Source: Dehalogenimonas formicexedens (lineage in GTDB: Bacteria; Chloroflexota; Dehalococcoidia; Dehalococcoidales; Dehalococcoidaceae). Taken from it: a DNA stretch of 64,000 nt. Position numbers and translations under genes: made by a program. Positions 16,458-33,047 of this stretch are shown here, one piece after another (positions within the stretch are counted from its first letter, which is position 1; each line of letters begins with the position of its first letter). Location of the stretch: NCBI RefSeq assembly GCF_001953175.1, contig NZ_CP018258.1:1206210-1270209 (forward strand). The letters are read 5' to 3'. Below the pieces are notes generated by a model. The model was given only the letters and a program-made list of their open reading frames with translations. It was not told the origin of the DNA and did not search any database.

Positions 16458-17228
16458 CTAACGGGTGAAAACCCCGAGATACCAGTCAATGATTTGGTTC
16501 CCCCACAGGAAGGTGATGAAGGTGGTCAGGGCGAGGAAAGGACCGAAGGGGATGGCCTCCTTGCGGCCTTTGCGGCTGAATATGAGCAGCCCGATGGCGA
16601 TGATGCCGCCCAAAATCCAGGACATGATGACCGCGGCGATGATGTTGGGCCAGCCGGTCACCAGCCCGGCGAAGGCGCCGAGTTTCACATCGCCCTCGCC
16701 CATGCCGCCGCGAGAAACGACGTAAACGACCAGGAAGATCAGGAATCCCACCACCCCGCCGATGACCGCGTGCAGTAGATTCGGTGAAAGATCGATCTGA
16801 GAATGGAAGACGCTGGCGGCCAGAGCCACTATCGACGCGGCAATAAGGATGCCGTTCAGTATCAGCTGGTGTTCCATATCGATGACGAAGATGACGATGG
16901 TGAAGGCCGCGTAAACCAGGCTCAGCCACAGCACCGCCGAGAAGCCGAAATAGAGGTATAGCCCGGCGAAAGCCAGCGCGGTCACCAGTTCCACCCAGAA
17001 TACCCTTTGCGGGATTTGTTCCCCGCAGGTGCGGCACCGGCCCCGGAGGGCCAGCCAGGAGATAACCGGGATCATGTCGAGAGGAGTGAGCCGCCGGCCG
17101 CAGCCGGGGCATCGCGAAGGCGGCGCCACTACCGATTGTTCCTGGGGCAGCCTGTCGCACAGGACGTTCAGGAAGCTGCCGATGACGGCGCCGAACAGGG
17201 CGAAGATGACGGCGTAGGCTATTTCCAT
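16458..17228 (-). CDS. pilD: Prepilin peptidase (type IV leader peptidase)
   Basis: A membrane aspartyl protease that cleaves prepilins at G|F and N-methylates the new N terminus. The 256-residue protein has GSFLNVLCDRLP in the first span, a zinc-binding pair CPGC and CRTC in the cytoplasmic loop (about residues 38-70), several membrane spans, and both catalytic aspartates: one in FVIDMEHQ and one in GGMGEGDVKLGAFAG (GxGD motif). I start at ATG 17228; a TTG at 17258 is in frame but adds a non-family leader. It should process the three pilins at 18.6-19.9 kb and the minor pilins at 26-28.5 kb. A heptad repeat array lies about 50 bases upstream. Confidence 0.95.
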   Translation of the reverse strand: MEIAYAVIFALFGAVIGSFLNVLCDRLPQEQSVVAPPSRCPGCGRRLTPLDMIPVISWLALRGRCRTCGEQIPQRVFWVELVTALAFAGLYLYFGFSAVLWLSLVYAAFTIVIFVIDMEHQLILNGILIAASIVALAASVFHSQIDLSPNLLHAVIGGVVGFLIFLVVYVVSRGGMGEGDVKLGAFAGLVTGWPNIIAAVIMSWILGGIIAIGLLIFSRKGRKEAIPFGPFLALTTFITFLWGNQIIDWYLGVFTR

Positions 17229-17276
17229 TTCGCGATATTGTGGCGGGTTGGGGGACAAGTGTCAAACATGTTGGAT

Positions 17277-17332
17277 AGTTCACAGTTCACAGTTATCAGT
17301 TATCAGTTATCAGTTTACAGTTAACAGTATCG
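17277..17332. repeat. CAGTTNN heptanucleotide array upstream of pilD (8 units)
   Basis: Units AGTTCAC x2, AGTTATC x3, AGTTTAC, AGTTAAC, AGTATCG in tandem at a strict 7-base period, about 50 bases upstream of the pilD start. Confidence 0.8.
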
Positions 17333-17514
17333 AGCTATCGCCATCGGCTTTCAGCAATCAGTTCCCCCGGATCCCCGATCGATCGTGAATTGAACGGGCA
17401 CAAAAAAGGAGATTTGGGGAAACAACTACGATTTTTACGATTGGGTTTTGGATCGTCCAATCGTGGAGTTGTTTGGTGCGGTCAATTCAATCAATTCATT
17501 CAATACGTTCAAAT

Positions 17515-17568
17515 AGTTGACAGTTTACAGTTATCAGTTATCAGTTTACAGTTATCAGTTGACAGTAC
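17515..17568. repeat. CAGTTNN heptanucleotide array (7 units)
   Basis: Units AGTTGAC, AGTTTAC, AGTTATC x2, AGTTTAC, AGTTATC, AGTTGAC, at the boundary of inverted repeat B. Confidence 0.8.
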
Positions 17569-17702
17569 GAGGCGGGCGAGCCGCCGCCCGCCCCTACCAT
17601 CACCCACCCGCCAATAGGTTCCGGCATTTCCCGGGATCGGTGGACAATTTCGTGACGAGGAGATTGCCACGCCCCCGATTTCATCGGGGGCTCGCAAAGA
17701 CA
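17515..17702 (-). repeat. Dispersed repeat B, copy 2 (inverted)
   Basis: Reverse-complement copy of 6393-6556, keeping the heptads, the CGGGCGAG segment, the CCCGGGATCGGTGGAC segment and the CCCCCGATTTCATCGGGGG hairpin in order. Confidence 0.7.
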
Positions 17703-17719
17703 ATTTGGGAGACATTGTC

Positions 17720-17822
17720 TTGCCCTCACCTTAGTCCTCTCCCACACTCCCTCACTCTCAAGCTCTCTCCCAGAGGGAGAGAGAATAAAAATGAAGGGCC
17801 AATCGTACGTGGGCGAGGAGAT
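17720..17822 (+). repeat. Dispersed repeat D, copy 1
   Basis: It is matched directly at 24096-24197: GCCCTCACC...CCTCTCCC, CCCTCACTCTCAAGC, then the palindrome CTCTCCCAGAGGGAGAG and AATAAAAATGAA. The central palindrome can form a hairpin. Confidence 0.75.
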
Positions 17823-17888
17823 TACTATAGCACATGAGTTCGTTGGGGATGTCAAGCGTTTGGTGTCGTTTTTGGGGCGATATTTTGT
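17821..17888 (-). repeat. Dispersed repeat A, copy 2 (inverted)
   Basis: Reverse complement of 6297-6366; read on the minus strand it retains CGCTTGACA and TGTGCTATAGT, so a promoter pointing left is possible. Confidence 0.7.
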
Positions 17889-18513
17889 TATGTCTAGTGA
17901 GACGGGCAAGATGATCCGCCTGATCACACTTGTGCCACCGTTGGTACGATGGATCGGAGGTTTGAAGGAAAGATTGTCTTGCCCTCACCCTAGCCCTCTC
18001 CCGCAAGACTGCGGGCGAGGGGAAAGTGAGACTGGGCGGGCGAGCTGCCGCTCGCCCCCTACCCAATGGCATCGGTGGACTCAGTGGGAGATTGCCACGG
18101 ATTTGCCAACTGGCAACTCCTCGCAAAGACACAATATTAATTGGAGATTGCCACGTCCCGATTCTATCGGGGACAGGTCCCGATTTCATCGCGGACTCGC
18201 AAAGACAGAGTATTAAATGAATGTTTACTAAATGTGAAACCGAGATTCTTCACTACGTTCAGAAAGACAAAGGTCTTGGCGGGCGGGGAACGATAGTTGT
18301 AGCGGTTTTGATGACAACAGACCGCTATGATCACACAACGTTACGCCGTCATATTTCATCGTAATCGCTATACACAGGCGACCCGACATCACCTATACTT
18401 ACCTGACAAAGTTCGCAATATGGAGTACCAGCGTCAGGCTGAAAGCTCGGAATCAGTACCCCAGTACGGGTAAAAACCTAATAATTCGTTAAAACAGGTA
18501 AACTAAAATACTA

Positions 18514-18543
18514 TTGACTATATCCAAGCCGCCCACTTATAAT
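18514..18543 (+). promoter_or_regulatory. Promoter of the first pilin gene
   Basis: TTGACT (18514-18519), an 18-base spacer and a perfect TATAAT (18538-18543). The transcript would have a leader of about 65 bases, consistent with a strongly expressed major pilin. Confidence 0.75.
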
Positions 18544-18617
18544 CCTTGGGTACTTAACTGAACGCTAATTCAGTGAGTAAATAAAATAAACTAGAACGGG
18601 AAGGTGGTGACAAACAG

Positions 18618-18989
18618 ATGAAGTTCTTACAGAAAATCCGCAAGGGCCGCAAAGGTTTTACCCTGATCGAACTTTTGGTGGTCATTGCCATCCTGGGCGT
18701 CATCGCCGCCGTCGCCGTGCCGAACATCCTCAGCTTCATGGGCTCCGGCAAGACCGAGGCCGCCAAGGCTGAGCAGCATAACGTTCAGGTCGCCGTTGCC
18801 GCATATATGGCTGAGCATGACGGAGTAGCGGTTGCCGAAACGATCGGCGTGGGTACGAAGGGTAGTTACGGAACTTACCTCATCAACAATGTTGAATACC
18901 CATGGGTGATCACCGACACTGGTACCGTCTCACCTGATACCAAAGCAAATGGTAATCCGCTCGGATCCTTGGGGTCTGCAGCTAACTAA
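18618..18989 (+). CDS. Type IV major pilin candidate (pilin 1)
   Basis: A 123-residue prepilin. The leader MKFLQKIRKGRKG is cut at G13|F14, giving mature FTLIELLVVIAILGVIAAVAVP, the N-terminal hydrophobic helix with the conserved Glu5 of type IVa pilins. The globular part is small (about 85 residues) and cysteine-free, ending in a Gly/Ser/Asn-rich tail. It has its own good promoter, a long leader, GGAAGGTGG as ribosome site and its own strong terminator (19014-19050), which suggests higher expression than the two paralogues downstream and makes it the best candidate for the major subunit. It would be processed by PilD and assembled by PilB/PilC. Confidence 0.93.
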   Translation: MKFLQKIRKGRKGFTLIELLVVIAILGVIAAVAVPNILSFMGSGKTEAAKAEQHNVQVAVAAYMAEHDGVAVAETIGVGTKGSYGTYLINNVEYPWVITDTGTVSPDTKANGNPLGSLGSAAN

Positions 18990-19013
18990 AAACTTCCAAA
19001 CAAATAATGAAAA

Positions 19014-19050
19014 ACGGAGGCAGATCTCAAAAGGAATGCCTCCGTTTTTT
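19014..19050 (+). terminator. Intrinsic terminator between pilin 1 and pilin 2
   Basis: ACGGAGGCA (19014-19022) pairs perfectly with TGCCTCCGT (19037-19045), followed by a T-run to 19050. Confidence 0.85.
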
Positions 19051-19076
19051 ACTAAAGCGAAAATCCGGAGACAAAT

Positions 19077-19412
19077 ATGGTTTCCAATCGAACTAGTAAA
19101 AGACAAGCCGGTTTTACTTTAATTGAACTTCTCGTGGTCATTGCGATTTTGGGGGTTGTTGCTGCTGTAGCAATTCCCAACGTTTTAAGTTTCATCGGCA
19201 AGGGAAACGACGCCGCCGCTAAACAAGAATTGTTAAATGTCGCAGCTGCAACGTCTGCAGCTCTTGCCTCAAATCCTCCGGTAGATCCGACCATTGATGA
19301 CGCACAAATTATCGTAGGCGTTGGTGTCGGTAAATTTCTTGTTCAGAACACTGAATTCAAATATACGATAGATGCTTCTGGAAACATTACACAAGGTGGC
19401 AGAGTCTCCTAA
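19077..19412 (+). CDS. Type IV pilin paralogue (pilin 2)
   Basis: A 111-residue prepilin with leader MVSNRTSKRQAG cut at G12|F13 and mature N terminus FTLIELLVVIAILGVVAAVAIP. The body is short and cysteine-free. The ATG at 19077 follows CCGGAG. It lies after the terminator of pilin 1, so its expression depends on read-through or an unseen promoter. It differs strongly from pilin 1 outside the N-terminal helix, so the three genes are old paralogues rather than recent copies. It may be a minor pilin or an alternative subunit. Confidence 0.9.
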   Translation: MVSNRTSKRQAGFTLIELLVVIAILGVVAAVAIPNVLSFIGKGNDAAAKQELLNVAAATSAALASNPPVDPTIDDAQIIVGVGVGKFLVQNTEFKYTIDASGNITQGGRVS

Positions 19413-19532
19413 ACGCCTGAATTGCCACCGAAACGTGACAACAAAACGCTACAAACTCGCAATAAAACCATCTTGATTACAGTTGTCTGATATTCTATTC
19501 TAAATATCATTTCTTCTATCCGAGGCGGAAAA

Positions 19533-19895
19533 TTGTCGTTAATTAATCTTACGAAGCGGCGACATGGCTTCACCCTCATGGAAGTGCTTGTCGTCCTTGT
19601 AATTTTCGGGGTTCTCGCCGCGATAGCGATTCCAAATGTGTTGCAATATATTGGAGTTGGTAACCGAAACGCGGCTCTCGAGGAAGAACATAATCTCATC
19701 GTCGCGGTCGGGGTGGCGATGAAAGAGGGTGGCGGAGCTATTGTTTCGGATTACACAAGCAGCGGCAAAGTGTATGCAAATGCTGACGCTGCGGATAACG
19801 ATCCTGCCAAGTATCTCCACAACGGTACTGAATTTGAATGGATCATCACCACAGGCGGAGTGTTAAGCCCCGGAACCAATAATCCCCTCAAATAA
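19533..19895 (+). CDS. Type IV pilin paralogue (pilin 3)
   Basis: A 120-residue prepilin starting at TTG 19533 after a GAGGCGGA ribosome site. The leader ends at G12|F13 and the mature protein starts FTLMEVLVVLVIFGVLAAIAIP with Glu5 preserved. The C-terminal half (EFEWIITTGGVLSPGTNNP) parallels pilin 1 (VEYPWVITDTGTVSPDTKAN), pointing to a shared fold. It is followed after 43 bases by a PMT-family glycosyltransferase on the same strand, which may glycosylate the pilins. Confidence 0.9.
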   Translation: MSLINLTKRRHGFTLMEVLVVLVIFGVLAAIAIPNVLQYIGVGNRNAALEEEHNLIVAVGVAMKEGGGAIVSDYTSSGKVYANADAADNDPAKYLHNGTEFEWIITTGGVLSPGTNNPLK

Positions 19896-22792: not shown

Positions 22793-23917
22793 TTAGAGGA
22801 ACGAGGAAATCATGCCGCCGCTTGAGGGTGGTCTGCGGCGTTGGTCCGGTTTTTTGGTCCGTCCCCCAAGCAACCTCCCCACCTCATCCGGATCATCGCA
22901 ATAGTCAAAAACGGTCTCACGGGATATCTTCTGATTCCGGTAGAGATCAACGAGGGAATCATCGAGGGAGACCATGCCCTCGTCCCGGCTGGTGCGGAGG
23001 ACATTGGGCAACTGGTAGATCTTTTCTTCCCTGATCAGATTACGGACGGCGGTGTTGGCAAGAAGGACTTCAACAGCGGCGATACGCCCGTCAATAGGAT
23101 GCCGCGGCACCAGTGCCTGGCACAGGACGCCGACAAGAAGCGAGGCAAGCCTGGTATAAGCCAGGTGACGCTCATGGGGCGGGAAGAGGTCTATGATTCG
23201 CTCCAGGGCCTGGTGGGCGCTGGGGGCGTGGCTGGTGGAGAGGACAAGGTGGCCGGTCTCGGCGATGGTCAAAACGGCGGCGGCGGTCTCCAGGTCACGC
23301 ATTTCGCCGACAAGGATAACGTCAGGATTCTGTCGCAGGACGTGCTTGAGGGCTTGGGCGAAAGATTTGGTATCGGTGCCCAGCTGCCGCTGGGTGACGG
23401 CGCATTTTATCGAGGGATAGATATACTCAATTGGATCTTCAATGGTAATGACGTGCTTGGCCTCGGTATGATTAAGATGCTGGATCATGGCGGCCAGGGT
23501 GGTGGACTTGCCGCTGCCGGTGGGGCCGGTGACGATGACGAGGCCCCGGGGACGGGAGACCAGGTCTTTGCAGATATCAGGGAGTTCAAGTTCGTCAATG
23601 GTGGGGATGACGGGAGGCAGAAGGCGGATTGCCAAGCTGATGGCGCCGCGCTGCTGGGCGGCGTTGCAGCGCAAGCGGCCGACGCCCGGCATGGTGAAGC
23701 CGAAATCCAATTCCAGTTCCCGCTGGAAAGTGTCCAGGTCGCCGGGCAAGGCCAGTTGTTTGAGCGCCTCGGCGGTGTCCTGGCTGGAGAGGGGCGGGGT
23801 GTTCAGTTTCTCCAGGGAACCTTTGGTGCGCACCATCGGCGGGGAGTCCACCACGAGGTGGAGATCTGAACCGCCTCGGTCGCGGGCCTGGGTTATGAGT
23901 GAAAAGACGTCGATCAT
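22793..23917 (-). CDS. pilT: Type IV pilus retraction ATPase PilT
   Basis: A hexameric cytoplasmic ATPase that depolymerises the pilus. The 374-residue protein starts with the PilT PAS-like domain (GGSDLHLVVDSPPMVR), then Walker A GPTGSGKSTT (about residues 131-140), the Asp box ITIEDPIEY, Walker B DVILVGEMRD and the His box TGHLVLSTSHA. The AIRNLIRE-type PilT signature appears as NTAVRNLIREEKIYQLP. The C-terminal 30 residues are an extra Arg/Pro/Gly-rich tail. The ATG at 23917 lacks a clear ribosome site; a heptad array begins 8 bases upstream. The gene is followed directly by the glycosyltransferase. Confidence 0.94.
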   Translation of the reverse strand: MIDVFSLITQARDRGGSDLHLVVDSPPMVRTKGSLEKLNTPPLSSQDTAEALKQLALPGDLDTFQRELELDFGFTMPGVGRLRCNAAQQRGAISLAIRLLPPVIPTIDELELPDICKDLVSRPRGLVIVTGPTGSGKSTTLAAMIQHLNHTEAKHVITIEDPIEYIYPSIKCAVTQRQLGTDTKSFAQALKHVLRQNPDVILVGEMRDLETAAAVLTIAETGHLVLSTSHAPSAHQALERIIDLFPPHERHLAYTRLASLLVGVLCQALVPRHPIDGRIAAVEVLLANTAVRNLIREEKIYQLPNVLRTSRDEGMVSLDDSLVDLYRNQKISRETVFDYCDDPDEVGRLLGGRTKKPDQRRRPPSSGGMISSFL

Positions 23918-23924
23918 TTTATGA

Positions 23925-23983
23925 AGTTCACAGTCAATAGTTATCAGTTATCAGTTATCAGTTATCAGTTGTCAGTTATCAGT
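23925..23983. repeat. CAGTTNN heptanucleotide array abutting pilT (8 units)
   Basis: Units AGTTCAC, AGTCAAT, AGTTATC x4, AGTTGTC, AGTTATC. The array starts 8 bases upstream of the pilT ATG and occupies the place where a ribosome site would lie. Confidence 0.8.
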
Positions 23984-24095
23984 GGCCATTTACAGAATAA
24001 TACCAATGTCACCAATAATACCAATTATCCAATCTGTCCAATGTTCCAAAAATGCAATTAATAACAATGAGGCGTGACCATCAGGTAAGACTATC

Positions 24096-24197
24096 TCGCC
24101 CTCACCCTACCCTCTCCCGCGCGCCCTCACTCTCAAGCCCTCTCCCAGAGGGAGAGGGAATAAAAATGAATGGCCCTTTTTACGCGGGCGAGGGGAT
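24096..24197 (+). repeat. Dispersed repeat D, copy 2
   Basis: Direct copy of 17720-17822, with the palindrome CTCTCCCAGAGGGAGAG and AATAAAAATGAATGGCCC. It ends just before the stop codon of the PilM-PilN gene. Confidence 0.75.
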
Positions 24198-24203
24198 TTC
24201 AGT

Positions 24204-25667
24204 TTAAACACAGGTCAGGGTGAAGTGGTAGACATAGACCATGGTGTCGGTGGTCAGTTCTTTGACTATCGACGTGACGATGACGTTCTGGAAACGGTAG
24301 GTGTCCCGTAGTTCCGTGGCATAGTCAAAGACGATAGACTCAGACGTTGTGGCGGTGCCGACGATAACGACGCTGGTGCCGTCCCACGAGATCGAATCCA
24401 GTTGGATCTGGGTAATATTCCTCTTTTCCAGCCAGGCGCTGCGGACGTACCCTGAAGCCATGGAGCGCTGGTCCTGGAGCACCTGGTAGAAGGAGGCATA
24501 GGCGGCGGCTTCCGTCTGCACCGGGGTAACGGCGGCGTTAGCGGCATCAATTTGAGGTTTAATGCCAGCAAGTTTAGCCTGAGCCTGGGTTACCTGCAGC
24601 GTAATGGCGTCTATCTGGGGCTGGATGGCATCAGCGTCTTTCTTGGCTTTATCGACGTAGGTCCAGCCATAAACCAGCGCGCCGATCAAAAGCACGCCGA
24701 CAGCCGGCGCCAGGATATTGAACCAGTTGACGCCGCGGGGCAGGTAGATAGCCGGAATGGCGTTCAGGTTGATGACCGAACCGAACTCATTCGGTAGGTC
24801 CCGCTGGGCCATGCCCAGGTTGACCATGAAACGGGAGGCATCGAAGCCTTCAGGGGCGGTAAATTCGGTGGTCAAAGCCTCCACCGGCCGGCCGTCGGTG
24901 CCGCCCAGAACAGACCACTGCTCTTTATCAGCGGCAAGTTCACCGGCGACCAGAATGGGAACTTCAGCACCCAGGGGGTCTTCCGTATGGGATGAATTAT
25001 AGAAGACGACGGTGCGGGAGATCTCCTCGGCGATGGTACCGAGGCGCTCCGAGTCCGTCAGGTGTTCAGAACCGAGGGAGAAACTGCGGATGACTTCCGG
25101 AACGCGGTCAACCAAGACGATGATATCGATGGTGGAAAGCCAGGTGTTGACGACGACGCAGCGGGAGCGGTTGACATTGCGAGCCAGGGCCAGCGGGGCG
25201 ACGTCAAGCACCTTGCTCTTGAGGCCGGCCTTGGTGAGGGTGCGCATCAGGGAGTCTGTGGCGTTCTTGGGGTGGGCGGCGAGGAAAAAGCGCATCTCGT
25301 GAGGAACCTTGGTCTGTAATTCCTGGCGCGCAACATAGACTTGGTCCATGGGGACGGGAATAACGCGGGTGGCCTCACTCATAATGGCATCATCCAGGAT
25401 ATTCTTGGGCACTTCCGGTATGTTGATTATTCTGAAGATCGAGTTCTGGCCGGAAACGGCGGCAACAACCTGATGCCCGGCAACACCGTTGTCCGATGCC
25501 AGTTTCTTCAGGCGTTCCGCAACGGCGTCTTCCTGCATGATGACGCCCTCATTGACCATGCCGGAATCAAGGGGGGCCATGGCCCATTTTTCAACCTGCT
25601 TGCCGGCGGTGACCAGGAGTTCTATCTCGTTGTCTTCGATGTAGACGGTAGTAAGAGTTTTTGCCAT
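24204..25667 (-). CDS. Fused PilM-PilN-like pilus inner-membrane assembly protein
   Basis: A 487-residue protein. Residues 1-310 look like the actin-like PilM fold (TTVYIEDNEIELLV, VVAAVSGQNSIFRI, VVVNTWLSTIDIIVL), here with a weakly conserved nucleotide site. Around residues 310-325 there is INLNAIPAIYLPRG, similar to the INLLP motif by which the PilN tail binds PilM, then one membrane span (ILAPAVGVLLIGALVYGW), a coiled coil and a periplasmic-type ferredoxin-like domain as in PilN. So PilM and PilN appear joined in one chain, tethering the cytoplasmic ring to the membrane. It is followed upstream in the operon by the PilO-like gene with 4 bases between them. Confidence 0.8.
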   Translation of the reverse strand: MAKTLTTVYIEDNEIELLVTAGKQVEKWAMAPLDSGMVNEGVIMQEDAVAERLKKLASDNGVAGHQVVAAVSGQNSIFRIINIPEVPKNILDDAIMSEATRVIPVPMDQVYVARQELQTKVPHEMRFFLAAHPKNATDSLMRTLTKAGLKSKVLDVAPLALARNVNRSRCVVVNTWLSTIDIIVLVDRVPEVIRSFSLGSEHLTDSERLGTIAEEISRTVVFYNSSHTEDPLGAEVPILVAGELAADKEQWSVLGGTDGRPVEALTTEFTAPEGFDASRFMVNLGMAQRDLPNEFGSVINLNAIPAIYLPRGVNWFNILAPAVGVLLIGALVYGWTYVDKAKKDADAIQPQIDAITLQVTQAQAKLAGIKPQIDAANAAVTPVQTEAAAYASFYQVLQDQRSMASGYVRSAWLEKRNITQIQLDSISWDGTSVVIVGTATTSESIVFDYATELRDTYRFQNVIVTSIVKELTTDTMVYVYHFTLTCV

Positions 25668-25671
25668 CAGT

Positions 25672-26268
25672 TTATCCTTCCAGCGCCATCAGGCTGATTG
25701 TGATAGTGGCATCCGGCGGCGGTACGGCGCCGAGTTCGGTGTCGAATTCGGTATAGAAGGTGATATCGACCGAATCGATCGTCGCGGTGAGATAGGCGGT
25801 GCCGGTTTCCAGGTTGCCTACAAAATCATTGATACGTTCTATGGCACCCGATACTTTGATAACCATTACGGTTTTTTGGTACGCGATCTTATCAATGGTT
25901 ACCTTATCCGGTCCAGAGGCGCTAAATTCAGTCAAATTCAAGGTATTGTTCGCAGCAAGAATGAATAGTTTTTCACCGTAATCTATAGATTGGATGGCTG
26001 CCACGGGCGGTGGGGTGGGGAATTTAGCTTTGTATGCTTGCAGGTTAGCTTGAGCTGCAGCAACTTTGGCCTGAGCAGCTGCTAAATCAGCCTGCGCCTT
26101 AGTGATGTTAGCCTGTATTGGTGGCAACAGCGCCGATGTTGAATTCAGGGTATCATTAAGCGTTGACTGACGATCAAGCTCTTTTTGGTACATGGTGTAG
26201 AGAAGTCCGGCCCCAATTGCGATTAAACCGAGGAAGAGAACCGATATAAAAGCTTTGCTGATCTTCAT
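25672..26268 (-). CDS. PilO-like pilus assembly protein
   Basis: A 198-residue bitopic protein: an N-terminal membrane span (residues 7-25), an Ala/Gln-rich coiled coil (about 55-80: KAQADLAAAQAKVAAAQANL) and a C-terminal alpha/beta domain. This layout and the position next to PilM-PilN match PilO, which pairs with PilN in the alignment complex. Sequence similarity alone would be weak; the context makes the call. The ATG at 26268 follows AAGGAGAG. Confidence 0.72.
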   Translation of the reverse strand: MKISKAFISVLFLGLIAIGAGLLYTMYQKELDRQSTLNDTLNSTSALLPPIQANITKAQADLAAAQAKVAAAQANLQAYKAKFPTPPPVAAIQSIDYGEKLFILAANNTLNLTEFSASGPDKVTIDKIAYQKTVMVIKVSGAIERINDFVGNLETGTAYLTATIDSVDITFYTEFDTELGAVPPPDATITISLMALEG

Positions 26269-26303
26269 TGACTCTCCTTAACAGGTTTTGGCGTTGGATT
26301 CGA

Positions 26304-27569
26304 CTAACTTACAGTTACTTCCCAGAGCAGTGTCTTCCATCGGATGTCAGGGGTACCGCCTAGTGTGGCAAAATCGGGCACATTCAATGGTGGGACAACA
26401 TCGTTAGGAGGCTCAAATGTGCTAGGGTGAACGAGTTCGGCTCCAGGTTGGAGTTCAACTTCAGCCGCACCTGCCACTGAACCCATGAAATCCCCATTTG
26501 GCTTCAATTGAGTGGTGCCCTCGATGGACATGATAAAAATGAAGCCTGCCGCGGATGTATTGGGATAAAAATCGATATCCCCTTTAGCGATGATGCAGCC
26601 GGCTCCAACTAATTTAATGGCTGAAGCAATACTTACTGAACCATTGACGTAAATGGTGTTCCCGTTAAGATTAATGATTGGATTTTTCTGACCGTTTTCC
26701 GCTATCTTAAAATCACCATTTACAAAAATTGTTCCGTTCAAAGTAGTGTAGGACGTAGGATCTGTAGACACATAGGTGGGATATTTGGTATCGCTTTGAA
26801 TCTCCAGGTCACCATACCTGAATAACGGCCCAATCGTGCCCCCGGGAGCGACGGTTATTTTGCTATCAGGATAATAAAGGGGACTGAGATTTTTCACTTG
26901 CTGCCAATAAAAATACGCCACCTGATCACCTGAGGTAGGTGGAACCCAGGAAGCTGGTGCTTCTGGATTGGGTTGCGTGTATGGCCAATTTGGGATGGGA
27001 TTCTTAGTAATGTCGCCAGTTATCGTACCCTTGTTATCCATAAATCCGTTATACATGACAGGACCGTTCACGGTCGCATTCGATCCCAACGACACGTTCC
27101 CGGGACTGGTTATAGCGTTCTCGGTGAAAATGATTGGCAATCCTGAAGGCGTGACGTAGGTTTGGACCGTTGTTTTCTTGCCACTAGGGTTTGTCGCTTC
27201 AGATACGACTTTATAAATCCGATCATGCTGATCCCACAATTGGATACTAACTTTCACAACCTGATTATTTACCCTAAACGATGAATCATCGTTGTTTAAA
27301 TAATAAGGCCCGAGAGTTTCAAATTGATTGACCGGTACGCGTTCCGTACCGTTTTTTATCTGCCAGACCGCATCAGCGACCCCCGCATCTGCAGCATACA
27401 ATTCTTCGGTTTTATTTTCGAACTTGGTCCCAACCGCCAATCCGCTAGCCATAAAACTAAGCATCGGAACCATGATGAGACTGCCCACAGCCAACACAAT
27501 TAAAGCGAGGATAAAGGTTACTCCTTTTTCCTCCCGTATTAACTTTTTCGGCCATCTAACGGCAATCAT
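26304..27569 (-). CDS. PilX-like minor pilin / pilus assembly protein with large extracellular domain
   Basis: A 421-residue protein with a prepilin-like N terminus: basic leader ending REEKG, probable cleavage at G16|V17 (VTFILALIVLAVGSLIMVP), no Glu at mature position 5. Next comes ELYAADAGVADAVWQIKNGT, the segment typical of PilX-type minor pilins, then a long, Gly/Asn/Pro-rich beta-structured region with repeated strands (GNVSLGSNATVNGPV, LNGNTIYVNGSVSIAS), which suggests a beta-helix or adhesin-like fold. It is far larger than ordinary PilX. It sits between the PilW-like and PilO-like genes and is probably a tip or priming component. Confidence 0.75.
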   Translation of the reverse strand: MIAVRWPKKLIREEKGVTFILALIVLAVGSLIMVPMLSFMASGLAVGTKFENKTEELYAADAGVADAVWQIKNGTERVPVNQFETLGPYYLNNDDSSFRVNNQVVKVSIQLWDQHDRIYKVVSEATNPSGKKTTVQTYVTPSGLPIIFTENAITSPGNVSLGSNATVNGPVMYNGFMDNKGTITGDITKNPIPNWPYTQPNPEAPASWVPPTSGDQVAYFYWQQVKNLSPLYYPDSKITVAPGGTIGPLFRYGDLEIQSDTKYPTYVSTDPTSYTTLNGTIFVNGDFKIAENGQKNPIINLNGNTIYVNGSVSIASAIKLVGAGCIIAKGDIDFYPNTSAAGFIFIMSIEGTTQLKPNGDFMGSVAGAAEVELQPGAELVHPSTFEPPNDVVPPLNVPDFATLGGTPDIRWKTLLWEVTVS

Positions 27570-27586
27570 CTTGAGCCTCCACCTGT

Positions 27587-28099
27587 TTAAGCAGGAGTAT
27601 AAAGCCTGGACAAAATGGTGTATGTATGAGACTGGGTAATGTCTCCCACCGTTACCGTCGCGATAAATGTCACCCCAACGGAATCAAGCGTGAAACTTGT
27701 CTGTGTGGAATCCAGATATTTGGCGACGATAACATTGCTCACCTGATGGTTGTTCTCCGAGTAAGCACGCCACAGGTCACCGTTAACGATTGTGTAAACG
27801 ACGGTATAAGTGGTGTGGCCTGACAAATCCTTCCAACTCAAAGTGACCAGGGAACCAACGGGAGTATCCGGAAGTGCGGACTCAGCCCGCTGGGTATCGT
27901 CACTAATCCAACGTCCGGCAATCTGCACCTGACGAACGGCTTCCATCTGGGAATCACTTCTGGCGCTGATCACGAACAATTGGAATACAGTGGTAGCAAG
28001 TGCGATTCCAATCACGACAGCGATCGAAATTGCTACTAGAAGCTCCACCAATGTAAAGCCCTTTCGCGCATTCCCGATATGAGTTAAAAATCGCTTCAT
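27587..28099 (-). CDS. PilW-like minor pilin
   Basis: A 170-residue prepilin. The leader ends ARKG (cut at G14|F15) and the mature chain starts FTLVELLVAISIAVVIGIALA with Glu5. The rest is a small beta-rich domain without cysteines. Its start overlaps the stop of the PilV-like gene by four bases. With PilV- and PilX-like neighbours it probably forms the priming complex that starts pilus assembly. Confidence 0.85.
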   Translation of the reverse strand: MKRFLTHIGNARKGFTLVELLVAISIAVVIGIALATTVFQLFVISARSDSQMEAVRQVQIAGRWISDDTQRAESALPDTPVGSLVTLSWKDLSGHTTYTVVYTIVNGDLWRAYSENNHQVSNVIVAKYLDSTQTSFTLDSVGVTFIATVTVGDITQSHTYTILSRLYTPA

Positions 28100-28515
28100 G
28101 GCTTAAATAAAAAATCTGTCAAACTGAGGATTACTTCGCCTCGATGAGACACGGTTACGGTGATCTGTTGAAGTTCATCGTCGTTGGTGTAGCCATCTTG
28201 CTTAGGATCCATGCGCTCCGCCACAATGGAAACCGTATATCCTGAGGGCGGCGGCAAAATGTATGCATCGTAGTTCGGGGGATCCGAGACATCGTACCAA
28301 GTGTCAACATGTGCTTTAAGATACTCGATCTGGCTCCGGGCGATTGTTTCTGATTGAGTCCGGATATCAGTAAGACGGGTCGCTTTTTGGGAGGTCGCCA
28401 ATCCAGACAACACCGCACCCGCGATAACCGCCATGATCGCCATAGCTACCAGGACTTCAACAAGGCTGAAGCCTTTTTGCCCTTTCTTTTTGTTTCGTTC
28501 GGCAGCGGATCCCAT
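28096..28515 (-). CDS. PilV-like minor pilin
   Basis: A 139-residue prepilin with a Lys-rich leader cut at G15|F16 (FSLVEVLVAMAIMAVIAGAVL), typical of PilV/PulI-type minor pilins, followed by a short beta domain with no cysteines. The start overlaps nothing upstream but lies 9 bases after the pilC stop; its own stop overlaps the PilW-like start (ATGA type), indicating coupling. Confidence 0.85.
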   Translation of the reverse strand: MGSAAERNKKKGQKGFSLVEVLVAMAIMAVIAGAVLSGLATSQKATRLTDIRTQSETIARSQIEYLKAHVDTWYDVSDPPNYDAYILPPPSGYTVSIVAERMDPKQDGYTNDDELQQITVTVSHRGEVILSLTDFLFKP

Positions 28516-28524
28516 TTCAAGTTC

Positions 28525-29739
28525 CTATTGAGCGCCCAGTTGACCGTACATCGAGTACATCGAACCCACAAGGGCGACAGCGATAAAGGCAACTATCAAA
28601 CCGATAATGACGGTCATAGCTGGTTGAATCAGTTCAACGGCAGATTTAATCTTGTCATCAGCTTCCATGTCATAGGTATGAGCGACAGTGGACAGGGTAT
28701 CATCCAATTTACCTGTTTCCTCACCGACACCGACCATGGCGACCATCATGGGTAAGAAAACCTTGCGCCGTTTCATTGGGCCGGACAGGCCCTCGCCGCG
28801 GATGAGTTCTTTCTGTACCTGCCCCAAATTTTCGCTGATAATCTTATTCGAAGTAGCGTTCTGGGCCTGGGCCATGATCTCAGGGAGGGGTAGACCAGCC
28901 CGGAACAGGAGGGCAATGGTCTGGCAGGCGCGGGAAAGTTCCGAAAGCTGAATGATCCGGCCAATCACCGGGGTCTTCAACAAACCCTTATCTATGTTGT
29001 ACCGGCCGTTTGGCGTCCTGGCCCACATTACCAAACCAACCACAGTCAAAACCAGAGCGCCGAGGATGTAAATGCCCCATTTGGCTGAGAAATCGGTAAG
29101 GGTAATAAGTATCTTGGTGGCTGTCGGCAGGTTAACGCCCAGGTTTCGATAGAGATCAGTGAACGTCGGCATGACGAAAAGCATCAGGATCGACACCACA
29201 ACGACAGCCACAACGGCAACCACGACCGGATAGGTCATGGCGCTCTTCAACTTCTTGCGGGTCTCGTTCATGCGGGAAAGGAAGTCCGCCATGTTGCGGA
29301 GGACGGCTTCCATGTTGCCGCCCTGTTCGCCGGCGGAAAGGACGCGGTGGAAGAGAGCCGAAAAGACCTTGGGGTGCTTGCTCATGGCGGCGGAGAGCGA
29401 AGAACCGCCGCGGATGTCGTTGGCAACGGCGCCGAGGGTCTTTTTGAAGGTGGGGTTGGTGGTCTGCTCCTGGAGGAGTTCCAGCGAGGTCACGATATCC
29501 GTGCCGGACTCCAGGAGGAGGGCAAGCTGGCGGGAAAAGAGGATGATCTCCTGCAGTTTCACCTTTTTGGCGAACATGCTGGAATCAGGCATCGAAAACA
29601 GGCGGGACTGGGTCTTGAGGGAAAGGACCTGGTAGCCGTTATGGACAAGCAGCTTGGCGGCGGAGTCACGGTCCATGGCCGCGATCTTGCCCTGCACCAA
29701 TTTGCGATCCTGGGTGTATGCTACGTAGGCGTAATTCAT
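28525..29739 (-). CDS. pilC: Type IV pilus platform protein PilC
   Basis: An inner-membrane platform protein that couples the PilB/PilT motors to pilin addition and removal. The 404-residue chain has the two GspF domains: residues about 65-190 (FSRQLALLLESGTDIVTSLELL) and 265-390 (ELSRACQTIALLFRAGLPLPE), and three membrane spans (about 168-190, 217-240 and 370-395). The N-terminal segment MNYAYVAYTQDRKLVQGKI is the usual PilC start. The start codon is ATG 29739 with GGCAGGA upstream; a heptad repeat array begins 14 bases before it, between pilC and pilB. Confidence 0.95.
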   Translation of the reverse strand: MNYAYVAYTQDRKLVQGKIAAMDRDSAAKLLVHNGYQVLSLKTQSRLFSMPDSSMFAKKVKLQEIILFSRQLALLLESGTDIVTSLELLQEQTTNPTFKKTLGAVANDIRGGSSLSAAMSKHPKVFSALFHRVLSAGEQGGNMEAVLRNMADFLSRMNETRKKLKSAMTYPVVVAVVAVVVVSILMLFVMPTFTDLYRNLGVNLPTATKILITLTDFSAKWGIYILGALVLTVVGLVMWARTPNGRYNIDKGLLKTPVIGRIIQLSELSRACQTIALLFRAGLPLPEIMAQAQNATSNKIISENLGQVQKELIRGEGLSGPMKRRKVFLPMMVAMVGVGEETGKLDDTLSTVAHTYDMEADDKIKSAVELIQPAMTVIIGLIVAFIAVALVGSMYSMYGQLGAQ

Positions 29740-29933: not shown

Positions 29934-32279
29934 TTAGAAACTTTCTTCTGGTGAATAGGCATTCTTTAGTACTTCCGATGGCGTGGTTATACCCTCTCGT
30001 ACTTTCAGCATGCCGTCTTTCATCATAGTGACCATGCCCTCGCGGATGGACTGGGCGCGCATATCGACGGCGCTAGCGCCGTCGAGCATCATCCGCTTGA
30101 GCGTTTCAGAGAAGTACATGATCTCATAGACGCCGACGCGGCCGAGGTAGCCGGTGTAGGCGCAGGATTTGCAGCCGGTGCCGTAATTGAACTTGGCGCG
30201 CTTTTCCCCGGTCTCACGCTCATAGGCGTGCTGCTCCACCACCGGCGCTTCAACCTGGTGGTTGCAATAGGGGCAGACGCGGCGAACCATGCGCTGGGCG
30301 ACGACGCCGATGACGGCCGACGAGATGAGGAAGGGCTCAACGCCCAGGTCTACCATGCGGAAGAGGACGCCGACGGTGTCGTTGGCGTGGATGGATGAAA
30401 GCATCAGGTGGCCGGTCAGGGCGGCCTGGACGCCGATGTTGGCGGTTTCGGCGTCGCGGATTTCGCCGACCATGATGACGTCCGGATCCAGGCGGAGGAT
30501 GGAGCGCAGGCCCGAGGCGAAGGTGATGCCGGCCTGGACGTTGACCTGGATCTGGTTGATGTCCTTGAAGCGGTATTCGGCGGGGTCCTCGATGGTGATG
30601 ACGTTCCGGGTCTTGGTATCGACCGTGGCCAGCGAGGCGTAAAGGGTGGTGGTCTTGCCGGCGCCGGTGGGGCCGGAGATCAGGATCATGCCGTAAGGCA
30701 CCCGCAGCATGCTCTCATACTTGGCCATCGACTCTTTGTTGAAGCCGAGCTGGGGCAGCTGCATCAGGCCGCGGGACTTATCTAGGAGGCGCATGACCGA
30801 CATCTCGCCGTGGACGGTGGGGGCGGTGGCGACGCGGATATCGATGGACCGTCCGCCGGCGGTGACCGAGAACTGGCCGTCCTGGGCGTGGTGATGGTCG
30901 GCGATGTTCAAAGACGCCAGAATCTTGATGCGTGAAATTATGGCCCGCTGCACCGAGATGGGCAGACTCATCATTTCCTGTAACGAGCCGTCAATGCGGA
31001 AGCGGACGCGGAGGCGCTCTTCATCGGGCTCCAGGTGGATGTCCGAGGAGCGGGCCTTGACCGCTTCTTCGATAATGAGGTTGAGGGCCTGGGCGAGGGG
31101 CGCGTCGACGGCGGCGTCCACGGCCAGTTTTTCATCGGAGATGTCCGCCGACATGGACATGCGGGACAGGAACTTGTCGACCTCGCCGTAACCCTTGTAG
31201 TTGAAGTCAATTGCCTCACGGAGTTCACGCTCATCGGCAGGCAGGGCCTTGATGCGCCGCTTGGAGTAGGCGGTCAGGGCTTCCAGCGCCAGGATGTCCG
31301 ACGGGTTGGCCATGGCCACTTCCAGGGTATTGCCGGTGAGGCGCACCGGTATGGCGTTGTAGCGCCGGGCCATGATCTCCGGGATGATCTTCAAAGCTTC
31401 CGGGGTGGGCAGCTGGCGCAGTTCCCGGCCCAGCTTGCCGCCTTCGGCGGGCTTGATCTCCATCTGGGGGGGCGGGGCGGTGACGGGGACGGTGGTGAGC
31501 GGCGTGACTTTTTCATCCGCCTTGGGAGTAAAGGTGATGATGCGGATCTTCTGGCTGTCGGCAAATTTCTCGGCTTCCTCGGACAGGTGGGCGGAGGTGG
31601 CGATGAACTTGGAGCCGACCCGGGCGTCATAGGCCTTGGTGTCGAACAGGGCGATCTCTTCCAGGTTCAGCACCGGGGCGTGGTTGATGATGTCTATGCC
31701 GAGGCAGTGCTCCTGGGCACCGTTGCCAAGTGAGCAGGCGACCAGGTCAAAGGTGTGCTCGATGCCGCTCTTGCCGGTCAGCCGCGCGTTCTCATCCACC
31801 TTGTAGCCGGTCTTCTTGAGCGATTCGATGAGGTCGGCCTTATCGACAAACTTCAGGGGGCGGTCCAGGTTGGGGGCTTCGGGGGCGGGGGACGTTTCCG
31901 CATGGCTGAAGAGGACCTGGAGGGAGGCTTCATCGAAAAGCTGGACCTTCTGGCTGTCGGCGAACTCCTGGGCCTGCTTGGCGAGATCGGTGGGCAGGAT
32001 GACCGCGCGCTCCGAGATGCCGGAGTCATAGGTCTTGTTGGCGAAAGCGAAGATGGAGGCTTCGGCCGCCGACTGGTCGGCAAGGCCGGTCAACACCGCG
32101 AAGGCGATGGTGCGCCGGGCAAAACCGTCGTCACGCCGGGCCAGGACGTCGAAATTATGCTCCAGGCCGGAGCGGCCTTTAAGCTTGGCCTGCTCCGTGA
32201 CCTCGTAGCCCTGGCTGGTGAGGTAGGCGGACAAGCGGGCGCCGATGGACTTCTTTTCGGCAACCTTGGTCGGTGTCAT
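29934..32279 (-). CDS. pilB: Type IV pilus extension ATPase PilB with two N-terminal Mrr-like domains
   Basis: A 781-residue GspE/PilB ATPase, about 200 residues longer than usual. Residues about 10-118 and 138-245 are a tandem duplication: each has GY-x-V, then G(R/K)SG(L/I)EH-x-FD, and ends FADSQK(V/I), resembling the Mrr-type restriction-endonuclease fold but lacking the catalytic Q/E-x-K (AVL and DII stand there). A T2SSE_N/MshEN domain follows (about 265-360), then the motor with Walker A GPTGAGKTT near 525, ITIEDPAEY, DVIMVGEIRD, TGHLMLSSIHAND and the zinc site CPYC...CKSC. I choose ATG 32279, with GAGG upstream; ATG 32297 is in frame. It powers pilus assembly with PilC. Confidence 0.93.
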   Translation of the reverse strand: MTPTKVAEKKSIGARLSAYLTSQGYEVTEQAKLKGRSGLEHNFDVLARRDDGFARRTIAFAVLTGLADQSAAEASIFAFANKTYDSGISERAVILPTDLAKQAQEFADSQKVQLFDEASLQVLFSHAETSPAPEAPNLDRPLKFVDKADLIESLKKTGYKVDENARLTGKSGIEHTFDLVACSLGNGAQEHCLGIDIINHAPVLNLEEIALFDTKAYDARVGSKFIATSAHLSEEAEKFADSQKIRIITFTPKADEKVTPLTTVPVTAPPPQMEIKPAEGGKLGRELRQLPTPEALKIIPEIMARRYNAIPVRLTGNTLEVAMANPSDILALEALTAYSKRRIKALPADERELREAIDFNYKGYGEVDKFLSRMSMSADISDEKLAVDAAVDAPLAQALNLIIEEAVKARSSDIHLEPDEERLRVRFRIDGSLQEMMSLPISVQRAIISRIKILASLNIADHHHAQDGQFSVTAGGRSIDIRVATAPTVHGEMSVMRLLDKSRGLMQLPQLGFNKESMAKYESMLRVPYGMILISGPTGAGKTTTLYASLATVDTKTRNVITIEDPAEYRFKDINQIQVNVQAGITFASGLRSILRLDPDVIMVGEIRDAETANIGVQAALTGHLMLSSIHANDTVGVLFRMVDLGVEPFLISSAVIGVVAQRMVRRVCPYCNHQVEAPVVEQHAYERETGEKRAKFNYGTGCKSCAYTGYLGRVGVYEIMYFSETLKRMMLDGASAVDMRAQSIREGMVTMMKDGMLKVREGITTPSEVLKNAYSPEESF

Positions 32280-32317
32280 AGGAGCCTGACCTCGCATTCA
32301 GTAGAAGTGTATCGTGA

Positions 32318-32323
32318 ATTATA
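32318..32323 (-). promoter_or_regulatory. -10 box upstream of pilB
   Basis: TATAAT on the minus strand (32323-32318), giving a leader of about 30 bases before pilB. It would allow pilB expression apart from the regulator genes upstream. Confidence 0.5.
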
Positions 32324-32354
32324 AATCATATGAATACTAACTATCTAATATTGT

Positions 32355-33047
32355 TCAACTTGCCTTTGTCGGTTGTTCCGTTTCACGGCCCAAGGGGATA
32401 TAGCCGCGGCGGATAGCCAGCACGGCGGCGTGGGCGCGGTCATTGGCGTTCAGCTTGCGCAGGATGGCCGAAATGTGGTTTTTGATCGTCTGTTCCGAGA
32501 TCTTCAGGGCCAGGGCGATCTGCTTGTTGGTATGGCCGTCGGTGACGTGGATGAGGATCTGGCGCTCGCGGGAGGTGAGGGGGGCGACGACATCCAGGCC
32601 GGCGTCCATCTCGGAGAGCTCCTGGAAGTTTTTCAACACCCGCTGGGCGATGAGGGGACGGGTGAGCAGTTCGTTGATGGGATATTCGCCGCGGGCGGCG
32701 CGGTCGATGGTCTCCAGGAGTTCGCCGGCGGTGGTGCTCTTCTTGAGGCAGGCCACGGCTGCGGTGCGGATGACATCGAAGAGTTCGGTGTCGTTGGGAT
32801 CCGGGGACAGGATGATGACGCGAATGTTGGGGTAATACCGCACGATCTTCCTGCCCAGTTCCAGGCCGTTGGCGGCGGTCAGGTCAGAGCCCAAAAGGAC
32901 GATATCGGGCATGGCGGCTTCCACCTTGCCCAGGGGGTCTTCGTTGGGATCGCATTCGACTACTTCCAGGTTCTCCCGGGATGAAAGCGCCTGGGCGACG
33001 CCGGAACGGAAAAAGGGTTGTTCATCGCAAACCATAATTCTGGTCAT
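32355..33047 (-). CDS. NarL/LuxR-type response regulator lacking the phospho-acceptor Asp
   Basis: A 230-residue two-domain regulator. The receiver (1-120) keeps the acidic pair D8/E9, the Ser switch in VIILSPD and the Lys in ACLKK, but the phosphorylation site reads PDIVLLGSDLTAANG: Gly53 stands where NarL-type proteins have Asp (LLD-x(7)-G spacing is preserved). D55 is two residues away. The C-terminal LuxR HTH is intact (LTSRERQILIHVTDGHTNKQIA and ISEQTIKNHISAIL). It is probably phosphorylation-independent. It follows the HTH gene by 3 bases and precedes pilB, so it likely controls the pilus genes. Confidence 0.88.
   Translation of the reverse strand: MTRIMVCDEQPFFRSGVAQALSSRENLEVVECDPNEDPLGKVEAAMPDIVLLGSDLTAANGLELGRKIVRYYPNIRVIILSPDPNDTELFDVIRTAAVACLKKSTTAGELLETIDRAARGEYPINELLTRPLIAQRVLKNFQELSEMDAGLDVVAPLTSRERQILIHVTDGHTNKQIALALKISEQTIKNHISAILRKLNANDRAHAAVLAIRRGYIPLGRETEQPTKAS

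Follow-up and report, generated by a model that had tools for sequence, protein, structure and literature searches.

Pilus motors are regulated at their N-terminus by c-di-GMP, through the MshEN domain, or by PilZ/FimX, and the PilB/MshE extension ATPases carry an N-terminal regulatory half of the former kind. Mrr-type restriction endonucleases have a PD-(D/E)XK fold with the motif D...Q/E-x-K. In NA-iREase1 (PF22722, NACHT-associated inactive restriction endonuclease) a degenerate restriction endonuclease (REase) domain is joined to an NTPase, and nucleotide sensing has been proposed for inactive REases coupled to NTPases in immune systems (PMC12839542). TackOD1 (PF18551; arCOG06883) received its name as an output domain of archaeal response regulators, and its function is described as obscure; it occurs in archaeal REC proteins, and TackOD1 proteins are found in thaumarchaeal type IV pilus loci (PMC5847659, PMC4858521). 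The PilB of Dehalogenimonas formicexedens has the same MshEN and T2SSE core as the PilB/MshE ATPases, and its gene belongs to the same run as pilC, pilM and pilT, but a tandem of degenerate Mrr-like nuclease domains stands at its N-terminus. The open-access papers that we searched contain no description of a nuclease-like domain on PilB.

The pilus locus and the layout of PilB

The window, i.e. the whole 64-kb stretch of DNA that was analysed, holds the whole pilus locus. It comprises pilD (16458-17258), prepilin genes (18618-19895) and, on the minus strand, pilT, pilM, pilN/O-like and PilX-like genes, two prepilin genes and pilC (22793-29739), then pilB (29934-32279) and, directly upstream of it, a gene for a NarL-type response regulator (32355-33047, minus strand). 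The order from pilT to pilC and the position of the regulator gene are the same in relatives. A link to defence systems was considered and dropped, as PADLOC gave only weak, scattered matches.

The pilB gene starts at ATG 32279, with GAGG ~10 nt before it, and stops at 29934; an alternative ATG lies at 32297. Long open frames on the plus strand opposite pilB (30289-32324) resemble shadow frames of the coding strand. Pfam domains and an alignment to the TIGR02538 model divide the 781-residue product into a tandem Mrr-like module, a linker, MshEN and the T2SSE ATPase. Repeat 1 spans residues ~3-128 (31896-32273) and repeat 2 residues ~142-250 (31530-31856), both placed from the AlphaFold2 model described below. 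They are followed by a Pro/Ala-rich flexible linker (residues ~251-287; 31419-31529; delimited from module-to-MshEN distances), the MshEN domain (residues 290-361; 31197-31412; Pfam E 6e-14) and the T2SSE motor ATPase domain (residues 390-771; 29967-31112; Pfam E 3.3e-123). The protein scores 494 bits against TIGR02538 (PilB), under the cut-off of 675.65, and is also below the cut-off of TIGR02533 (GspE), so the name PilB rests on context, namely T2SSE plus MshEN and the company of pilC, pilM and pilT in the gene run. The TIGR02538 alignment begins only at profile position 70, the first 70 positions being unmatched and the tandem module standing there instead. A strict c-di-GMP MshEN motif (RLGxx... 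of the MshEN N-terminal half, searched as a regular expression) is absent from the D. formicexedens protein and from 108 PilB-like ORFs. Together these two results indicate that the module occupies the place of the usual regulatory N-terminal half.

Fold and active site of the tandem module

The original prediction held that two tandem repeats of ~110 residues, sharing GYxV, GxSGxEHxFD and FADSQK, precede the MshEN and ATPase parts, and this description, silent only on the strand, is accurate: all three motifs are present in both repeats, which are 30% identical over 114 residues (blastp E 8e-16). Their alignment score of 140, against 27.8 +/- 4.8 for 2000 shuffles with a maximum of 57, rules out a chance or low-complexity repeat.

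A Pfam scan of the D. formicexedens protein alone returned no significant family in either repeat. Its best matches were ambiguous (DUF1829, 0.006, over the repeat pair; Mrr_cat, E 0.008, repeat 2 alone and under the gathering score; S1_RRP5, 0.07), so family membership could be settled only with relatives. With these included, the Mrr_cat profile (PF04471) is matched by 30/32 members of the module family (best 3.4e-14), several of them above the gathering score, and NA-iREase1 by 18/32 (best E 2.3e-8). A PDB search with the single sequence likewise gave nothing useful, and a 45-row profile ranked 1y88 first with an E of 0.24. Structure prediction points the same way. AlphaFold2, run on residues 1-258 with 31 relatives, yields a confident model (pLDDT 91, pTM 0.83) of two alpha-beta-beta-beta-alpha-beta-alpha-beta domains; by DSSP, repeat 1 runs helix, three strands, helix, strand, helix, strand, helix. 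The best solved structure in Foldseek is 1y88 (AF1548; E 1.3e-5), to which VIA-align fits repeat 1 with Z 13.8 and rmsd 2.7 over 114 residues (model 8-128), while repeat 2 is fitted to the NucS-type nuclease 2vld with Z 10.7 (model 145-253). Both repeats thus contain the alpha-beta-beta-beta-alpha-beta core of PD-(D/E)XK nucleases, and the unrelated fold that would have overturned the nuclease reading did not appear. The predicted relationship to Mrr also stands, on the Mrr_cat matches and on a profile alignment to Mrr domains.

To follow the active site we built a profile from 185 extracted copies and set it against 11 Mrr domains from the same class that keep D...QxK. Four separate profile-profile comparisons place the catalytic Asp of Mrr on D44 (32148-32150) in repeat 1 and D178 (31746-31748) in repeat 2, and assign its Q and K to columns 49 and 51. 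In D. formicexedens these columns fall in A61-V62-L63 (32091-32099) and D196-I197-I198 (31686-31694), exactly the AVL and DII at which loss of Q/E-x-K had been proposed. None of the 185 copies has [EQ]xK, so that the catalytic pair is gone throughout; G and D predominate in column 49, and L, A, E and I in column 51. Polar residues near the former site are largely kept, the catalytic-position Asp being D in 168/185 copies and the GxSG loop retaining Ser in 181/185 and Gly in 178/185. In addition, the copies share a further motif where helix B ends, F[DA]xK[AC][YF]DxGI, which is not seen in the Mrr domains aligned. It corresponds to F79-I88 (FANKTYDSGI; 32016-32045) in repeat 1 and F212-V221 (FDTKAYDARV; 31617-31646) in repeat 2, with K/R at the Lys column in 174/185 copies and D/E at the Asp column in 183/185.

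Active-site residues are known to migrate within the PD-(D/E)XK superfamily, which raises the question of whether the tandem has stayed a nuclease by rearranging its active site, with K82 and D85 of helix B (K215 and D218 in repeat 2) in place of the lost pair. The retained D44/D178 and the conservation of the Lys and Asp columns are what such a site would require. We nevertheless consider it most improbable: helix B (69-85) has K82 and D85 at its C-terminal end, but A61-L63 is found where strand 3 (55-62) ends, close to where helix B begins, and from this topology ~13-16 helical residues, roughly 20 A, should separate the new residues from the old site.

The module is under purifying selection, with a dN/dS of 0.08-0.15, at least roughly double the value for the remainder of the protein. 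It is acidic, with a mean net charge of -6 (D. formicexedens copy -8, pI ~5.3) versus about -0.5 for single Mrr domain pieces. Set beside Mrr_cat endonucleases and AF1548, it has the same fold and element order and keeps the catalytic Asp, but it differs in having no Q/E-x-K in any copy, in being nearly always tandem and fused to PilB or TackOD1, and in its acidity. With NA-iREase1 it shares the profile match and a degenerate REase domain joined to an NTPase; here, however, the domain is tandem, and where NA-iREase1 has a NACHT immune ATPase there is a pilus motor (T2SSE) or a TackOD1/REC regulator.

Across 35 PilB proteins, the distance from the module to MshEN ranges from 31 to 411 residues (median 46), while the gap between the repeats is always 26-34 residues. 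The fixed spacing combined with the variable linker suggests that the tandem is a unit tethered to the PilB motor. Copy number can also vary: a 1103-residue PilB (locus L061, 1573-4881, minus strand) has four Mrr-like copies, i.e. two tandem modules, and a TackOD1-type protein (locus L147) has three.

Distribution and a second carrier, TackOD1

All 11 Dehalococcoidaceae genomes have the PilB module. A profile built from the copies of this family matches in 33/101 genomes of the order and 67/393 of the class; PilB with the module (PilB-Mrr2) occurs in 49/393 class genomes, or, by a hand tally, in about a third (49/149) of the MshEN-bearing Dehalococcoidia genomes, which answers how widely the class shares it. 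Outside the class the module was not matched in a 350-genome phylum sample. A contig scan with the single PilB protein as query found nothing, whereas a one-genome-per-species scan with a 10-row alignment gave 38 loci. The titles of 36/38 read Dehalococcoidia, Dehalococcoidales, Dehalococcoidaceae or Chloroflexi/Chloroflexota. Two loci are titled Deltaproteobacteria (L137 and L141), probably wrongly, since their PilB ORFs (806 and 829 aa, with the repeats at identical positions) are apparently those of genomes G100 and G041, which are placed in Dehalococcoidales.

PilB is not the only carrier. The same tandem forms the C-terminus of ~455-residue TackOD1 zinc-ribbon proteins (TackOD1-Mrr2) and of REC-TackOD1 proteins of ~700-840 residues. 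As in archaea, TackOD1 is associated with pilus loci and fused to REC, but full-length Dehalococcoidia TackOD1 proteins end in the Mrr2 tandem that is also found on PilB. Foldseek on a TackOD1-Mrr2 model retrieved nucleases again, and nothing firm for TackOD1 itself. Most TackOD1 genes sit in the pilus locus, where TackOD1-Mrr2 adjoins pilA and/or pilD, inside or alongside loci in which PilB-Mrr2 is encoded too (e.g. L084, L085 and L086). In nine genomes with a PilB of 518-533 aa that has no module, TackOD1-Mrr2 is instead directly upstream of pilB on the same strand, with a gap of at most 27 bp or an overlap in 8/9 and 167 bp in the ninth. Of the 33 class genomes with TackOD1, 18 also have PilB-Mrr2, versus 49/393 overall, although these hand-tallied counts ignore relatedness and the copies are not independent. 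Neighbouring genes in relatives were named by blastp to a reference set, in which PilB is labelled PilT on account of the shared ATPase core. At one locus (L056, 7292-9051, minus strand), a row of three short genes lies between TackOD1-Mrr2 and pilB-Mrr2; judged by sequence alone, their products resemble Roadblock/LC7 (MglB-like) proteins.

The 11 Dehalococcoidaceae genomes have no TackOD1 by a model that exceeds its cut-off in 33 other class genomes. In D. formicexedens, the interval between pilD and the first prepilin gene (17259-18617), which by synteny is the place of TackOD1-Mrr2 in relatives, is 1.36 kb without a convincing gene, and no TackOD1 remnant was found there or elsewhere in the 64-kb window.

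In a weakly resolved tree of individual repeat copies (102 columns), repeats 1 and 2 of PilB form one group each, and PilB repeat 2 joins ten TackOD1 second repeats with 96% SH-aLRT. This grouping is consistent with a tandem that predates the split between PilB and TackOD1.

REC-TackOD1-Mrr2 genes lie next to a membrane glycosyltransferase gene and further two-component genes instead of pilus genes. The module may thus have uses beyond pili, and control of exopolysaccharide by the same module is possible at these loci. The glycosyltransferase is a family-2 membrane enzyme adjoining REC-TackOD1-Mrr2 at six loci (L073, L074, L103, L147, L148 and L149); an OmpR-type regulator is nearby in L073, L074 and L148, and a histidine kinase also in L073 and L074.

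Possible roles of the module

Taken together, we favour, with a probability of roughly 0.6, the view that the N-terminus of PilB consists of two catalytically dead Mrr-type PD-(D/E)XK domains working as a non-enzymatic binding and regulatory module. The tandem is probably not a nuclease but a part of the motor that serves control or docking; its presence on TackOD1 and REC-TackOD1 proteins, many of which have their genes in the pilus locus, suggests regulation or docking. The proposal that a nuclease fold had been reused as a binding or sensory module on the pilus motor is supported in part. The selection on the module (see above) agrees with a functional part of the motor gene and it is maintained in pilB, but it is not specific to PilB, and the suggested DNA binding is without support. 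The module is acidic and nothing ties it to DNA or its uptake; every one of the 11 Dehalococcoidaceae genomes has ComEC, but this protein is common and does not discriminate.

Mechanistically, the tandem would be one rigid two-domain unit that hangs or swings off the PilB hexamer at the position usually taken by the N-terminal MshEN half, and through which a partner might act on pilus extension. That partner could be a second protein with Mrr2, for instance TackOD1, through which two-component input could be relayed; other candidates are PilM and the response regulator encoded upstream. Since all 11 Dehalococcoidaceae genomes are devoid of TackOD1, contact between TackOD1 and PilB cannot be the general function, and the module must act there with another partner or a ligand. 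A ligand might bind at the conserved Asp/GxSG and Lys/Asp sites.

A module that only stabilises or oligomerises PilB, without conveying a signal, would fit the fixed repeat spacing, and a pair of nuclease folds in tandem could resemble a dimer. A tether of 31-411 residues is, however, unlike that of a rigid structural part, the same module is found on REC-containing regulators, and pilB of related families does without it. We regard such a purely structural extension as unlikely.

A likelier, if still tentative, alternative is that the module is a nucleotide or nucleic-acid sensor, in which a small nucleotide or DNA/RNA bound at the vestigial active site gates the motor. The polar residues around the old site have survived the loss of the motif, more than half of the family members match NA-iREase1, nucleotide sensing has been proposed for inactive REases coupled to NTPases, the module stands at the unmatched start of the TIGR02538 model, and GGDEF proteins are present in all 11 Dehalococcoidaceae genomes. 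On the other hand, an acidic module is unlike a typical DNA clamp, the published role of inactive REases is itself a proposal, and folding or an interface may just as well account for the conserved residues. By extension, the tandem could be a shared nucleotide or nucleic-acid receptor of the pilus motor and the TackOD1 regulators, such that one intracellular signal would steer both pilus extension and, with REC-TackOD1-Mrr2, a surface-polysaccharide synthase; this we think rather doubtful.

The pilus biology of organohalide-respiring bacteria is, to our knowledge, almost unstudied. As a non-catalytic regulatory module, a pseudo-nuclease tandem at the N-terminus of the motor would represent an input of a new kind. 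That TackOD1, a domain of obscure function, is joined to this tandem as well gives a first testable lead for both the PilB module and TackOD1. The concept that inactive REases act as sensors or adaptors would thereby reach from immunity to a machine of motility and adhesion.
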